Source: Pseudoxanthomonas wuyuanensis
GTDB taxonomy: Bacteria; Pseudomonadota; Gammaproteobacteria; Xanthomonadales; Xanthomonadaceae
Reading direction: 5' to 3'
Assembly (NCBI RefSeq): GCF_900215535.1
Contig: NZ_OCND01000008.1
Location: 62,001-126,000, forward strand
Length of the DNA: 64,000 nt
Below the pieces are notes generated by a model. The model was not told the origin of the DNA and ran no database searches. It worked only from the letters and a program-made list of their open reading frames with translations. Both the position numbers and the translations under genes were made by a program. Below are positions 3,281-35,822 of the stretch, one piece after another. Every line of letters begins with the position of its first letter. Position 1 is the first letter of the stretch.

Positions 3281-4753
<1,473 letters not shown>

Positions 4754-32277: not shown

Positions 32278-32814
32278 GGCGTTCGCAAGGGATGCGCATG
32301 CATCGAAAGAGTTCAGCCAGTCCAATCAACGGAATCCAGTTTCCGCCCTGAGAGCCTGGTCGCGATTCTGGTGAAGTCGCGCCGGGAACTGCCGGCATGC
32401 AGGACAAGGAAGAGCGAGGGAGCGTATGCCGATACGCGACTGAGCGATGACGCCGGCCTGCGTGGCGGCAGACCCGGCCCGCAGGGTGGTCGCAAAGCGA
32501 CCACGCGATTGCGCCAGAGTCGCAGGCTCTCCCGCCTCCGGTGTGCCTGAGCGCCTGCCGAAGCAGAGGCGCAGCGGCAACGGGCGCAATGCGCCGCGTT
32601 GTGATGCTTCGACGCGAGCGGCGCGAATGGATTGGCGAAGAGATAGGGCGCGTTGCGCCTACATGCATTGCCGGTTGGCGACAGCCGGCAATACGGAGCA
32701 TCGATCGAACACGTTTCAGCGGTGCGGGTTCCCGCTTTCGCGGAGCGGGCCCGTCCGGTGCGCGCGGCGCTGCCGTGGCGTATGCCGAGACGTGGGAGAA
32801 GGTGTTTCGCGAGC
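32278..32814 (+). other. Hairpin-rich noncoding region upstream of the tRNA-like elements
   Basis: No credible protein gene is seen in these 537 bp. They hold many short perfect hairpins: GCGTAT-GCCG-ATACGC (32422-32437), CCTGCG/CGCAGG (32457-32485), GTGGTCGC-AAA-GCGACCAC (32486-32504), GGCGC-aat-GCGCC (32584-32595), GGCGC-gtt-GCGCC (32647-32659), TTGCCGG/CCGGCAA (32668-32691) and CCCGCT/AGCGGG (32731-32749). Density and spacing suggest a structured RNA, or the precursor part of the downstream RNA array. The promoter of the array is not identified. Confidence 0.45.
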
Positions 32815-32883
32815 GGACGAAAGCTCAGCGGTCGAGCAGCGGCGAAAGCCGTTGGCGCCGGTTCGAATCCGGTTCGTCCACCA
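32815..32883 (+). ncRNA. Anticodon-less tRNA-like RNA with encoded CCA
   Basis: These 69 nt fold as a cloverleaf. Acceptor GGACGAA (32815-32821) pairs perfectly with TTCGTCC (32873-32879), then discriminator A and CCA. D-stem GCTC/GAGC (32823-32826, 32834-32837) closes a 7-nt loop with GG. The anticodon position has a 5-bp stem GCGGC/GCCGT capped by a GAAA tetraloop (32844-32847) instead of a 7-nt anticodon loop. The variable loop is 5 nt. The T arm is CCGG-TTCGAAT-CCGG with a normal T loop but only 4 bp. It cannot decode a codon, but should look like tRNA to RNase P, CCA and T-loop-binding enzymes. The slipin and rtcB genes follow on the same strand. Confidence 0.7.
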
Positions 32884-32956
32884 CTGGATAGCTCAGTTGG
32901 GTAGAGCAGCAGATTTCTAATCTGTCGGTCGCGGGTTCGACTCCCGCTCCAAACCA
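32884..32956 (+). tRNA. Degenerate tRNA-Arg(UCU)-like element with shortened acceptor stem
   Basis: It begins directly after the CCA of the preceding element. D arm GCTC/GAGC (32891-32894, 32904-32907), anticodon arm GCAGA-TTTCTAA-TCTGT (32909-32925) with anticodon TCT, 5-nt variable loop, and T arm GCGGG-TTCGACT-CCCGC (32931-32947) are all canonical. The acceptor is not: CTGGA (32884-32888) faces TCCAA (32948-32952), giving 4 pairs and a C/A mismatch, before ACCA (32953-32956). A standard 7-bp register gives only 4 of 7 pairs. It may be a decaying tRNA gene or a deliberate mimic. Confidence 0.65.
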
Positions 32957-33037
32957 TGACCTGTCACGTCATGACACAGGGACGAAAGTCCCAACCAGGA
33001 AACGCCCCATGCGGCGTTCCGTATCCGCGCAACGGAA
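32955..33037 (+). ncRNA. Series of small hairpins following the tRNA-like elements
   Basis: In order: CATGAC/GTCATG (32955-32960 with 32968-32973); GGGAC-GAAA-GTCCC (32979-32992); AACGCC/GGCGTT (33001-33006 with 33013-33018); TTCCGT/ACGGAA (33017-33022 with 33032-33037). The GAAA hairpin repeats the loop seen in the anticodon-less element. They look like a continuation of a structured transcript; no protein is encoded. Confidence 0.45.
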
Positions 33038-33214
33038 TGTGCGGCACGGAGCAAGGCAGCGGCGGTGCGGCCGCAGCCGCGTCCCGGATGCGGGCGGAAC
33101 GGTATCGAAGTCGTCGCGGTGGAGTATCGCCGCATCGACGGGCATGCCGGACTCCCCGCGGACGGCGCGCGATAGCCGCCGCATCGGCGTCAAGGGGCGT
33201 TTCCGCCTTTTCGA

Positions 33215-33327
33215 CCCCTCCCCTTGCGAAGGCAGGGGGAGGTTGGGAAGGGGTGCCGTCGAATCAGGCATGCGCCTGCGACCACGCAACCCCTCCCCCA
33301 ACCCTTCCCTGCCTTCGCAGGGGAGGG
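33215..33327. repeat. About 40-nt near-perfect inverted repeat of CCCTCCCC...GCGAAGGCAGGG type
   Basis: Left arm 33215-33254 and right arm 33288-33327 are complementary with a few mismatches, separated by 33 bp. The core CTGCCTTCGCAGGGG is an intergenic repeat type seen in this family and partly also at 18.5 kb. It lies about 75 bp upstream of the slipin start; apart from it, 33038-33403 contains no gene I can identify. Confidence 0.75.
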
Positions 33328-33403
33328 AGCTACGCGGCAACCGATCCGCCGCGGGCAGCTTCAGCCAACGGATCGGACCACCAGAGCCAACAAGGAGATA
33401 ACC

Positions 33404-34528
33404 ATGTTCTGGACCAAGAGGGTCGTGATCGGCGACGGCGAGCGCGGCCTGGTATTTCGCAACCGTCGCTTCGAGCGCGTGCTCGCGCCGGGCGTCCACA
33501 AGCTGTTCGATCCGCTGAACCGGATCGCCGTGGTTGTGCACGCCATCGCCAGGCCCGAATACGCCGGCAACGACGCCGACGTCTTGATTGCGCTGATAGG
33601 CGCCGACCTGTCCGCGCACTTCACGCTGGCCGATACCGGCATGCAGCAGGTCGGCCTGGTGTCGAAGAACGGCAAGCTTGAGGACGTGCTGGCGCCGGGT
33701 ACCCGCAAGCTGTACTGGCGGGGCGTGGTGCAGGTGGACGTGCGGATGGTGTCGCTGGCCGACTCGCTGGAAGTCGAGGTGGCCGTGGTCAAGCGCCTGC
33801 GTCAGCTCGGTTCGCTGGCCAAGGTCGCCGTGGCGGTGGACGTGCCGATGGAATCGGCCGGCCTGCTGTTCATCGACGGCAAGCTGGTGCGCACGCTGGG
33901 CGCGGGTGCGTACGCTTTCTGGAATTTCCAGAAGAACGTATTCGCCGAAGTGATCGACCTGCGCGTGCAGTCGCTGGAAGTCTCCGGCCAGGAATTGCTG
34001 ACCAGGGACAAGGTGTCGCTGCGCGTCAACCTGGCCGCCAGCATGCGCGTGACCGACCCGGTCGCCGCGCGTACCCAGGTGGCCAAGTACGGCGATCACC
34101 TGTACCGCGAGCTGCAGTACGGCCTGCGCAAGGCGGTTTCCGCCAAGACGCTGGACGAACTGCTGGGCGACAAGGCATCGCTGGACGCCGACATCTTCGC
34201 CTACGTGCGTGGCCAGCTGGCCGGCCTGGGTGTGGAGGTGCTGGGCGTGGGCGTGAAGGACGTGATCCTGCCGGGCGAGATGAAGGACATCCTCAACGGC
34301 GTGGTGCAGGCGGAGAAGACGGCCCAGGCCAACGTGATCCGCCGCCGCGAGGAAGCCAACGCCACGCGTTCGCTGCTCAACACCGCCAGGTTGATCGAGG
34401 AAAGCCCGGTACTGATGCGCCTGAAGGAACTGGAAGCGCTGGAGAAGATCACCGAGAGGATCGACAAGCTGACCGTGTTCGGCGGCCTGGATGGCGTGCT
34501 GAAGCAGTTGGTGAGTTTGAAGCAATAG
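33404..34528 (+). CDS. Slipin / SPFH (band 7) domain protein
   Basis: The 374-residue protein has an N-terminal part MFWTKRVVIGDGERGLVF, a second segment with SPFH features around 110-270 (ALGVEVLGVGVKDVILPGEMKDILN-type ending), and a C-terminal helix with EKTAQANVIRRREEANATR, typical of slipins. No clear N-terminal membrane helix is visible, so membrane association may be peripheral. AAGGAG precedes the ATG. The gene is followed by rtcB on the same strand, a pairing seen in bacterial RNA-repair loci. SPFH proteins form oligomeric scaffolds on membranes. Confidence 0.85.
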   Translation: MFWTKRVVIGDGERGLVFRNRRFERVLAPGVHKLFDPLNRIAVVVHAIARPEYAGNDADVLIALIGADLSAHFTLADTGMQQVGLVSKNGKLEDVLAPGTRKLYWRGVVQVDVRMVSLADSLEVEVAVVKRLRQLGSLAKVAVAVDVPMESAGLLFIDGKLVRTLGAGAYAFWNFQKNVFAEVIDLRVQSLEVSGQELLTRDKVSLRVNLAASMRVTDPVAARTQVAKYGDHLYRELQYGLRKAVSAKTLDELLGDKASLDADIFAYVRGQLAGLGVEVLGVGVKDVILPGEMKDILNGVVQAEKTAQANVIRRREEANATRSLLNTARLIEESPVLMRLKELEALEKITERIDKLTVFGGLDGVLKQLVSLKQ

Positions 34529-34531
34529 CAC

Positions 34532-34579
34532 CTGCCCCTTCCCCGCTCACCCCGCGTGAACGGGAGAGGGGGCAGTTTT
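34532..34579 (+). terminator. Terminator-like hairpin between slipin and rtcB
   Basis: CTGCCCCTTC (34532-34541) pairs with GAGAGGGGGCAG (34564-34575) with one wobble, and the stem is followed by TTTT (34576-34579). It would partially terminate transcription before rtcB or process the mRNA, giving less rtcB than slipin. Confidence 0.5.
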
Positions 34580-34601
34580 GACAGCAACGGAAGAAAACAT
34601 C

Positions 34602-35822
34602 ATGAACGCACAGAATTTCGAACTGCTGCACGCCGAAGGCAGCGCCACGCCGATCAAGGGCTGGGTGCGCGGCGTGCCGCTGGAAGCGCAGGCGCACGAG
34701 CAATTGCGCAATATCGCTTCCATTCCCTTCGTCGGGCCGTGGGTGGCGGTGATGCCGGACGTGCACCTGGGCAAGGGCGCCACCGTGGGTTCGGTGATTC
34801 CGACCCGCGGTGCGATCATTCCGGCCGCGGTTGGCGTGGACATAGGTTGCGGCATGGCTGCGGTGCGCACCACGCTGCGCGCCAGCGACCTGCCCGACAA
34901 CCTGGCGCAGTTGCGCAACAGCATCGAGCGCAGCGTGCCGGTCGGCAACGGCCGTGGCGGCGAACACCGCAAGCTGCCGGACAGCATCCAGACCCGTATC
35001 GCCGAATCCGGACTGGTGCCGCGGCTGGAGGCGATCAAGGCCAGGCACCGCCGCATCCGCACCGACAAGCTGGACTGCCAGATCGGCACGCTGGGCGGCG
35101 GCAACCACTTCATCGAGATCTGTCTGGACGAGACCGATGCGGTGTGGGTGATGCTGCACAGCGGATCGCGCGGCACCGGCAATCTGATCGGCACTTACTT
35201 CATCGAGCGGGCGCGCGAGCAACTGGCGCACCGTGTGCTGGGTTTCCACCTGCCGGACAAGGACCTGGCCTTCTTCATGGAAGGCGAGCCGCTGTTCGAG
35301 GACTATGTGGAAGCGGTTTCGTGGGCGCAGGACTACGCCCGCGCCAACCGCGAGGCGATGATGGCGCGGGTGCTGGCGGAGATGCGCCACCGCTTGCCGA
35401 AGTTCCAGTTGGAGAAGCTGGCGGTCAACTGCCACCACAACTACGTGCAGAAGGAAACGCACGGCGGCGAGGAACTGCTGGTCACCCGCAAGGGCGCGGT
35501 CAGCGCGCGCGCAGGCGAGCTGGGCATCATCCCGGGCAGCATGGGCACGCGCAGCTATATCGTGCGCGGCAAGGGCAATGCGGACAGCTTCCACAGCTGC
35601 AGCCACGGCGCCGGCCGCGTGATGAGCCGTACCGCCGCGCGCCAGCAGATCACCTTGCAGCAGCACCGCGAAGCCACCGCGCATGTGGAGTGCCGCAAGG
35701 ACGCGGCGGTCATCGACGAATCGCCGGCCGCCTACAAGCCGATCGATGCGGTGATGGCTGCGCAGAGCGATCTGGTGGAAGTGGTGCACACGCTGCGCCA
35801 GGTGGTCTGCATCAAGGGGTGA
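34602..35822 (+). CDS. rtcB: RtcB-family RNA ligase
   Basis: The 406-residue protein carries the RtcB signature residues: MPDVHLGKG (51-59), GVDIGCGM with metal-ligand cysteine C83, GGGNHFIEI, HSGSRG, GSMGTRSYIVRG and SCSHGAGRVMSR with the guanylylated histidine. It ligates RNA 2,3-cyclic phosphate or 3-phosphate ends to 5-OH ends using GTP and Mn. Length about 406 fits the shorter bacterial RtcB branch. The ATG at 34602 has GGAAG 12 nt upstream. No rtcA or rtcR is present in the window. Context with slipin and tRNA mimics points to repair of cleaved tRNAs. Confidence 0.94.
   Translation: MNAQNFELLHAEGSATPIKGWVRGVPLEAQAHEQLRNIASIPFVGPWVAVMPDVHLGKGATVGSVIPTRGAIIPAAVGVDIGCGMAAVRTTLRASDLPDNLAQLRNSIERSVPVGNGRGGEHRKLPDSIQTRIAESGLVPRLEAIKARHRRIRTDKLDCQIGTLGGGNHFIEICLDETDAVWVMLHSGSRGTGNLIGTYFIERAREQLAHRVLGFHLPDKDLAFFMEGEPLFEDYVEAVSWAQDYARANREAMMARVLAEMRHRLPKFQLEKLAVNCHHNYVQKETHGGEELLVTRKGAVSARAGELGIIPGSMGTRSYIVRGKGNADSFHSCSHGAGRVMSRTAARQQITLQQHREATAHVECRKDAAVIDESPAAYKPIDAVMAAQSDLVEVVHTLRQVVCIKG

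Follow-up and report, generated by a model that had tools for sequence, protein, structure and literature searches.

Tandem tRNA-like elements in a conserved RNA upstream of a slipin gene in Pseudoxanthomonas wuyuanensis, and their possible role as bait or decoy

The stretch of Pseudoxanthomonas wuyuanensis DNA considered here (the window) comprises 64,000 nt, positions 62,001-126,000 of the forward strand of contig NZ_OCND01000008.1 (assembly GCF_900215535.1), and contains a gene for a slipin followed on the same strand by a gene for the RNA ligase RtcB. Upstream of both lies what sequence comparison identifies as a conserved structured RNA of about 280 nt (32710-32992), composed of a three-way junction, two tRNA-like elements (el1 and el2), a free hairpin with an anticodon-type loop (el3) and a GAAA hairpin (el4). 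An earlier sequence-only reading had described el1, the slipin and the ligase; the two proteins match Pfam Band_7 and RtcB as proposed. Two models were built for this work, R1 from el2 (with the window in its training set) and R2 from the 5' domain. The features, in window positions, are:

32667-32692, + strand: HP1, an 11-bp hairpin with a GCGA tetraloop (sequence)
32710-32794, + strand: 5' domain, a three-way junction of P1, SL0 and P2 (covariation)
32815-32883, + strand: el1, the first-reported tRNA-like element (Rfam RF00005, 42.7 bits; covariation)
32884-32952, + strand: el2, the second tRNA-like element (Rfam RF00005, 55.7 bits; R1, 89.7 bits)
32955-32973, + strand: el3, a free anticodon-type hairpin (sequence; loop comparison with the genome's tRNAs)
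32979-32992, + strand: el4, the hairpin GGGAC-GAAA-GTCCC (sequence and alignment)
33404-34528, + strand: slipin, SPFH/Band 7, 374 aa (Pfam Band_7, 6.3e-31)
34602-35822, + strand: RtcB RNA ligase, an optional neighbour (Pfam RtcB, 3.4e-126)

Relatives of the RNA were sought in 247 Xanthomonadaceae genomes, 73 of which match the DNA at E ≤ 1e-15, bearing out the expectation that the element is conserved upstream of slipin-rtcB pairs in this family. Seventy of these 73 matches and seven loci from a scan for RtcB form a set of 77 RNA loci, two of which are repeats (L004 = L094, L008 = L111); el1 was parsed in 75 of them (L139 and L147 left out) and the el3 set holds 76 (L139 dropped). Parsing of el2 failed in six of the 77, and L099 and L139 were parsed as el1 by mistake; these misparses are the source of the 4-nt and one 6-nt el2 loop and lie outside the 41 distinct 7-nt loops discussed below.

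el1 had been described as a cloverleaf in which a tetraloop replaces the anticodon loop, and the sequence is as described: a 7-bp acceptor (GGACGAA/TTCGTCC) is followed by discriminator A and an encoded CCA, the D arm carries GG, the T loop reads TTCGAAT, and GAAA caps a 5-bp arm (with one G-U pair) at the site of the anticodon arm, with no 7-nt anticodon loop in the window. The Rfam tRNA score of 42.7 bits exceeds the gathering threshold of 29 (E 1e-05 for the window); ARAGORN calls no tRNA in the window, neither el1 nor el2, and among the 45 tRNA matches in the organism's own genome el1 ranks last and el2 39th. The fold is, on the evidence of the alignment, beyond chance: it is kept in 18 relatives with a covariation of 0.480, compared to 0.159 for shuffled alignments (the reference for all covariation values here). 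A lack of covariation or conservation, which would have counted against the sequence-only reading, is not observed. Both-side changes occur at 7/7 acceptor pairs, the outermost pair being unpaired in 8/14, and CCA directly follows the acceptor in 50 of the 75 parsed loci; the anticodon arm is paired in just 78.7% of cells among the 18 sequences because it is often short or irregular. By eye, el1 of the related loci L009 (Stenotrophomonas), L142, L143, L149, L151 and L152 has lost the usual D arm and has another hairpin instead, while el2 and el3 are kept. el1 had been taken for a single mimic of about 69 nt; it does appear to be a real tRNA mimic with an acceptor, yet it forms one module of a multi-domain leader of which el2, the 5' junction and the hairpins had been overlooked.

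The Rfam match to el2 (32885-32951) scores above that to el1. The D, T and acceptor arms of the cloverleaf are present as in el1; a tRNA-type 7-bp acceptor with CCA is not, as four acceptor pairs hold and there is no clean or conserved CCA. Covariation of el2 reaches 0.319 (0.110 shuffled; 24 sequences, three rows inexact) with both-side changes at 5/5 pairs of the anticodon stem. Among 69 distinct sequences the anticodon loop, TTTCTAA in the window, has an entropy of 1.49 bits per column, compared to 0.43 for the D arm, 0.18 for the T arm and 0.05 for the 5' acceptor. Loop lengths range from 5 to 8 nt, and the 41 distinct 7-nt loops present 29 triplets; the anticodon thus differs among orthologues, unlike that of a tRNA.

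A hairpin with a 7-nt loop lies just 3' of el2 in 68 of 76 loci, some of these being chance picks by the script. In the window this hairpin, el3, reads CATGAC-CTGTCAC-GTCATG, and its loop is the same as that of the genome's own tRNA-Asp(GUC). The reference for loop comparison was the set of 43 tRNAs called by ARAGORN on fetched own-genome stretches, which have 41 distinct anticodon loops. The el3 loop equals a real own-genome tRNA loop in 48/76 loci (Asp 27, Glu 15, Tyr 3, Gly 2, Lys 1), or 46/74 without the two repeated loci; counted by distinct loops the figure is 5/21, where within-loop shuffles give a mean of 0.07. The Asp and Glu loops are carried by several different stems, which speaks against a DNA operator.

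Alignment of the regions upstream in Pseudoxanthomonas, Dyella, Lysobacter and Stenotrophomonas shows that conservation begins well 5' of el1. The 5' domain consists of P1 (32710-32717 with 32787-32794), SL0 (within 32718-32755; longer in the window than in most relatives) and P2 (32757-32786; GGU..AU bulge..GCC). In 21 relatives, the window excluded, both-side changes occur at 7/8 pairs of P1 and 4/5 of SL0, 95.2% of cells are paired, and covariation is 0.377 compared to 0.121 for shuffled alignments and 0.065 for the best slid version; P2 with its AU bulge is almost invariant. The fold of 350 nt of the window has a z of -2.41. HP1 is restricted to some genera, many family matches starting 3' of it; compensatory changes are seen by eye in L006 and L008. 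The 3' sequence of P2, GCGTATGCCGA (32777-32787), is found again upstream at 32424-32438 within GCGTATGCCGATACGC.

The constant partner of the tRNA-like RNA is, as judged from gene order, the slipin and not RtcB. A slipin search at E ≤ 1e-40 in 398 Pseudomonadota genomes yields 23 genes. R1 matches upstream, on the slipin strand, in 22 of them, 17 of which lie outside the family used to build R1; the remaining gene, in L222, has just 103 nt of upstream sequence and cannot be judged. Beyond R1, the case for orthology draws on the tandem order and the weak acceptor of el2 and, in many loci, on the P2 helix: R2 matches at E ≤ 0.01 in 12/23 slipin loci, and a relaxed P2 pattern is present in 15/22, at least one probably by chance (the pattern was misplaced in L205, P2 being located there by R2 with 57.6 bits, and probably also in L217). 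Spacing between el2 and slipin is loose, at 180-922 nt in 21 loci. Between the RNA and the slipin of the window, at about 33222-33328, an inverted repeat of ~100 bp gives many weak matches to microRNA families and looks like a repetitive intergenic element. Further upstream of the slipin leader, three to seven additional tRNA-like genes called by ARAGORN form arrays in L078 (1488-1997; a betaproteobacterial metagenome-assembled genome, MAG), L232 (10550-10832) and L233 (10373-12541); these could be either spare tRNAs or more bait.

The same association is seen when loci are collected by rtcB. For the best 80 of at least 589 rtcB loci, tblastn was used to score slipin, RtcR, RtcA, Ro60 and a nucleotidyltransferase, and Rfam or R1 to score tRNA-like elements; since some of these loci end at contig ends, a gene missing from a locus may lie outside the stretch. 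Slipin is present in 19/80, 18 of which have a tRNA-like element upstream of slipin on the same strand (Rfam 7/7, R1 11/12); in the 19th, L044, the P2 region can be read together with a T arm and a hairpin of the anticodon type. Ro60 occurs in 15/80 and never together with slipin (0/80); the P of zero overlap is 0.011, P values being guides only because counts were made by hand and loci are related. RtcR accompanies 11 of the 19 slipin-bearing loci, six of these 11 having a sigma-54 site by pattern, and no such pattern is found in the seven Xanthomonadaceae rtcB loci with slipin.

Searches by family in the window's own genome find no Ro60/TROVE, in agreement with the sequence-only reading, and no RtcR or RtcA. 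RtcR matches in 6/41 genomes searched, five being over the cut-off. Eight slipin genomes belong to another class, which we would guess to be Alphaproteobacteria (G690, G753, G788, G851, G869, G902, G925, G944); seven of their slipins have an R1 match and the eighth is L222. Whole-genome searches of these eight find RtcB in 1/8 and RtcA in 0/8, and TROVE is found in none of nine genomes searched, namely these and the window's own. For 9/23 slipin genes no rtcB matches in the short stretch; in larger stretches, available for all of these but L215, rtcB is found in L232 only (upstream of the RNA and slipin, along with rtcA) and not in L226-L231 or L236. The best reading of these gene neighbourhoods is that the slipin-RNA module would replace Ro60 and Y RNA in RtcR/RtcB repair operons and would also exist without them.

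The slipin itself has a Band_7 domain; Pfam Band_7 is matched by 19/19 aligned slipins at E ≤ 1 (best 6.1e-35). Its predicted model (pLDDT 82.5) begins with small β modules, and no N-terminal membrane helix is evident by eye, so that its proposed role as membrane scaffold is doubtful. The Band_7 domain is shared, by sequence and fold matches, with Stomatin/slipin, HflK and QmcA; in contrast to these, the window slipin has two extra N-terminal β modules, no evident membrane helix and a linked RNA. The vault protein MVP may resemble it in having an SPFH-type fold with small β modules before and a long helix after; the predicted model aligns to MVP with a whole-chain TMq of up to 0.48, the highest among the Foldseek matches listed, but at a root-mean-square deviation of 17.7 Å. 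Vault RNA is bound by the TROVE-bearing TEP1 (PMC7916137).

The closest known arrangement is Ro60 (Rsr) with YrlA-type Y RNA, where RtcR/RtcB operons likewise encode a tRNA-like RNA and its protein partner. Here the partner is an SPFH and not a TROVE protein, the tRNA modules are in tandem and in normal order where YrlA has T before D, the anticodon loops are hypervariable, and the RNA occurs without rtcB; a search with the YrlA model (RF02553) gives 27 bits, compared to a gathering threshold of 69. Hughes et al. 2020 (PMC7790460) demonstrate that tRNA fragments are sensed by RtcR, and suggest that the tRNA-like domain of YrlA may competitively inhibit an anticodon nuclease. In Anabaena, deletion of trcR raises the slipin alr0740 and rtcB and derepresses a tRNA array (PMC10272220), which would provide a stress context for a slipin acting with tRNA-like RNA; a second paper also finds rtcB and the same slipin changed and warns of an erythromycin effect (PMC9938897). 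The Anabaena trn operon with TrcR differs in having 26 tRNA genes on a megaplasmid, and is not known to adjoin slipin.

A reduced form of the leader is found in 1624 of 5426 complete E. coli genomes (about 30%). A relative is encoded in nine plasmid-collection records. In one E. coli record, the leader sits between the genes yjbD and lysC, with slipin and then a nucleotidyltransferase after it. A sigma-54-like site (TGGCACGCTTCTCGCA) is present, together with a single T arm and a hairpin of the anticodon type; R1 matches just a T-arm piece there (12.9 bits) and no cloverleaf. Two K-12 derivatives, DH1Ec169 and NEB5-alpha, match the query over its first 109 of 835 bases only. Ahead of slipin in a Clostridia record (L238) are CGGTGCG...GCGTATGCCG, a pair of T arms and, at 17.6 bits, a weak match to R1; this one record, with its P2 motif and T arms, suggests that the module crosses phyla.

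It is proposed that the ~280-nt RNA acts with slipin as a ribonucleoprotein (RNP) whose anticodon loops serve as bait or decoy, a tentative reading whose chance of being right we place a little under even. The RNA would be transcribed together with slipin and excised from that transcript, as el1 and el2 resemble substrates of RNase P and RNase Z; a slipin oligomer would then hold it, perhaps via the nearly invariant P2 helix, as suggested by linkage alone. The exposed anticodon-type loops of el2, el3 and possibly SL0 would be bait or decoy, above all for anticodon nucleases, and el1, lacking an anticodon loop in the window, would be uncuttable there. Real anticodon-type loops together with one loop-less version, situated beside or instead of the RtcR pathway, make bait or decoy the simplest single account, and the decoy role named in the sequence-only reading is in this respect plausible.

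Several observations weigh against this proposal. Loops of el2 equal own-genome tRNA loops in 4/41 cases, where column shuffles give a mean of 2.8 (p 0.30), and U33 is present in only 28 of 45 unique 7-nt el2 hairpins; with matches at shuffle level and U33 often absent, the variability could be relaxed constraint, and el2 is to be considered hypervariable and not an exact tRNA mimic. Other el2 columns vary too (anticodon stem 1.05 bits, variable arm 0.79, 3' tail 1.3), and under a stricter column shuffle the el3 matches reach just p 0.005 (5/21 distinct loops, mean 1.4). The anticodon-type loop of the E. coli leader is identical in 12/12 usable aligned sequences (L244 left out). R1 is near the general tRNA model, so that a match alone is no proof of orthology, and 7/22 slipin loci, including six of the other class, lack the relaxed P2 pattern. 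Lastly, that the RNA keeps its place upstream would suit a leader acting in cis as well.

That last point leads to the main rival, in which the RNA forms the 5' leader of slipin's own mRNA and senses damage in cis: nuclease cuts in the anticodon loops would switch slipin (and rtcB), and the leader may stand in for RtcR where RtcR is absent. The element's presence upstream on the slipin strand in 22/22 testable loci is in keeping with such a sensor, and both the missing RtcR of the window's genome and the missing sigma-54 pattern of the seven Xanthomonadaceae loci agree with it. Against it, the spacing is loose, up to 922 nt, with a repeat intervening in the window; 11/19 slipin loci keep the RNA despite having RtcR, six of these with the sigma-54 pattern; and no conserved terminator or start-site switch was noticed, although no systematic search for one was made. 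Loose spacing and retention of the RNA beside RtcR favour a trans-acting RNP over a cis sensor, which is considered unlikely.

An improbable third account treats el1 and el2 merely as punctuation, RNase P and RNase Z cut sites that trim the slipin transcript; the full acceptor-T domain of el1 and its frequent CCA suit this function, which leaves unexplained the hypervariable loops, the free el3 with real tRNA loops and the covarying 5' junction. Still more doubtful, to the point of being very improbable, is the view of the sequence-only reading that the RNA is a guide tethering RtcB or a substrate of it. Many slipin genes do adjoin rtcB; against this, slipin with the element occurs in genomes without RtcB (seven of the eight other-class genomes searched have none), and in two loci where slipin comes after rtcB and rtcA, namely L030 (Microbulbifer) and L036 (a gammaproteobacterial MAG), the element lies upstream of slipin, tracking it and not rtcB. 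Among the 61/80 rtcB loci without slipin, only four (L021, L050, L060, L064) have a tRNA-like element of at least 35 bits upstream of rtcB on its strand, that of L050 resembling an ordinary tRNA-Pro. That ordinary or decaying tRNA genes came here by accident is hardly credible: Rfam calls el1 and el2 tRNA, some other-class copies match the whole tRNA model and upstream arrays in L078, L232 and L233 hold further tRNA-like genes, but el1 lacks an anticodon in the window, the anticodon of el2 varies on an almost frozen body, decay would not preserve compensatory changes, and the slipin linkage spans classes.

A broader form of the bait or decoy proposal, which we regard as possible but on balance unlikely, is that of a new class of bacterial RNP: a soluble SPFH oligomer with a tRNA-like RNA, independent of Ro60-Y RNA and vault-like in plan, whose loops, as bait or sensor, would change rapidly under an arms race with the anticodon nucleases of phage defence, bacteriocins and toxins, with RtcB, RtcA and RtcR as optional add-ons for repair and alarm. 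No report of a slipin-partnered tRNA-like RNA was found in titles or abstract openings of the open literature, coverage of which was incomplete and thus no proof of absence from print. Many SPFH proteins have, to our knowledge, no clear function. If the proposal holds, an RNA partner would give one branch of this family a testable job in tRNA damage; it would provide a second solution beside Ro60-Y RNA and explain what precedes some rtcB operons, and the loops would document which anticodon loops are defended by bacteria in nature. The reduced form in E. coli makes study in a laboratory species possible.

Some further features of Rtc operons were observed. At the head of the operon in two Sphingomonadales loci (L060:2540-2617 and L064:3651-3727), a sigma-54-like site is closely followed by a gene resembling tRNA-Pro(UGG), which in turn precedes Ro60 or rtcB. 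In L021, a gene resembling tRNA-Asp(GUC) (4538-4614) lies between Ro60 and rtcB; in L014 and other loci this position is taken by either a Y RNA or a weak tRNA-like match. A nucleotidyltransferase gene is recurrent in Rtc operons and lies directly 3' of slipin in the E. coli cassette (L237:9128-9919).

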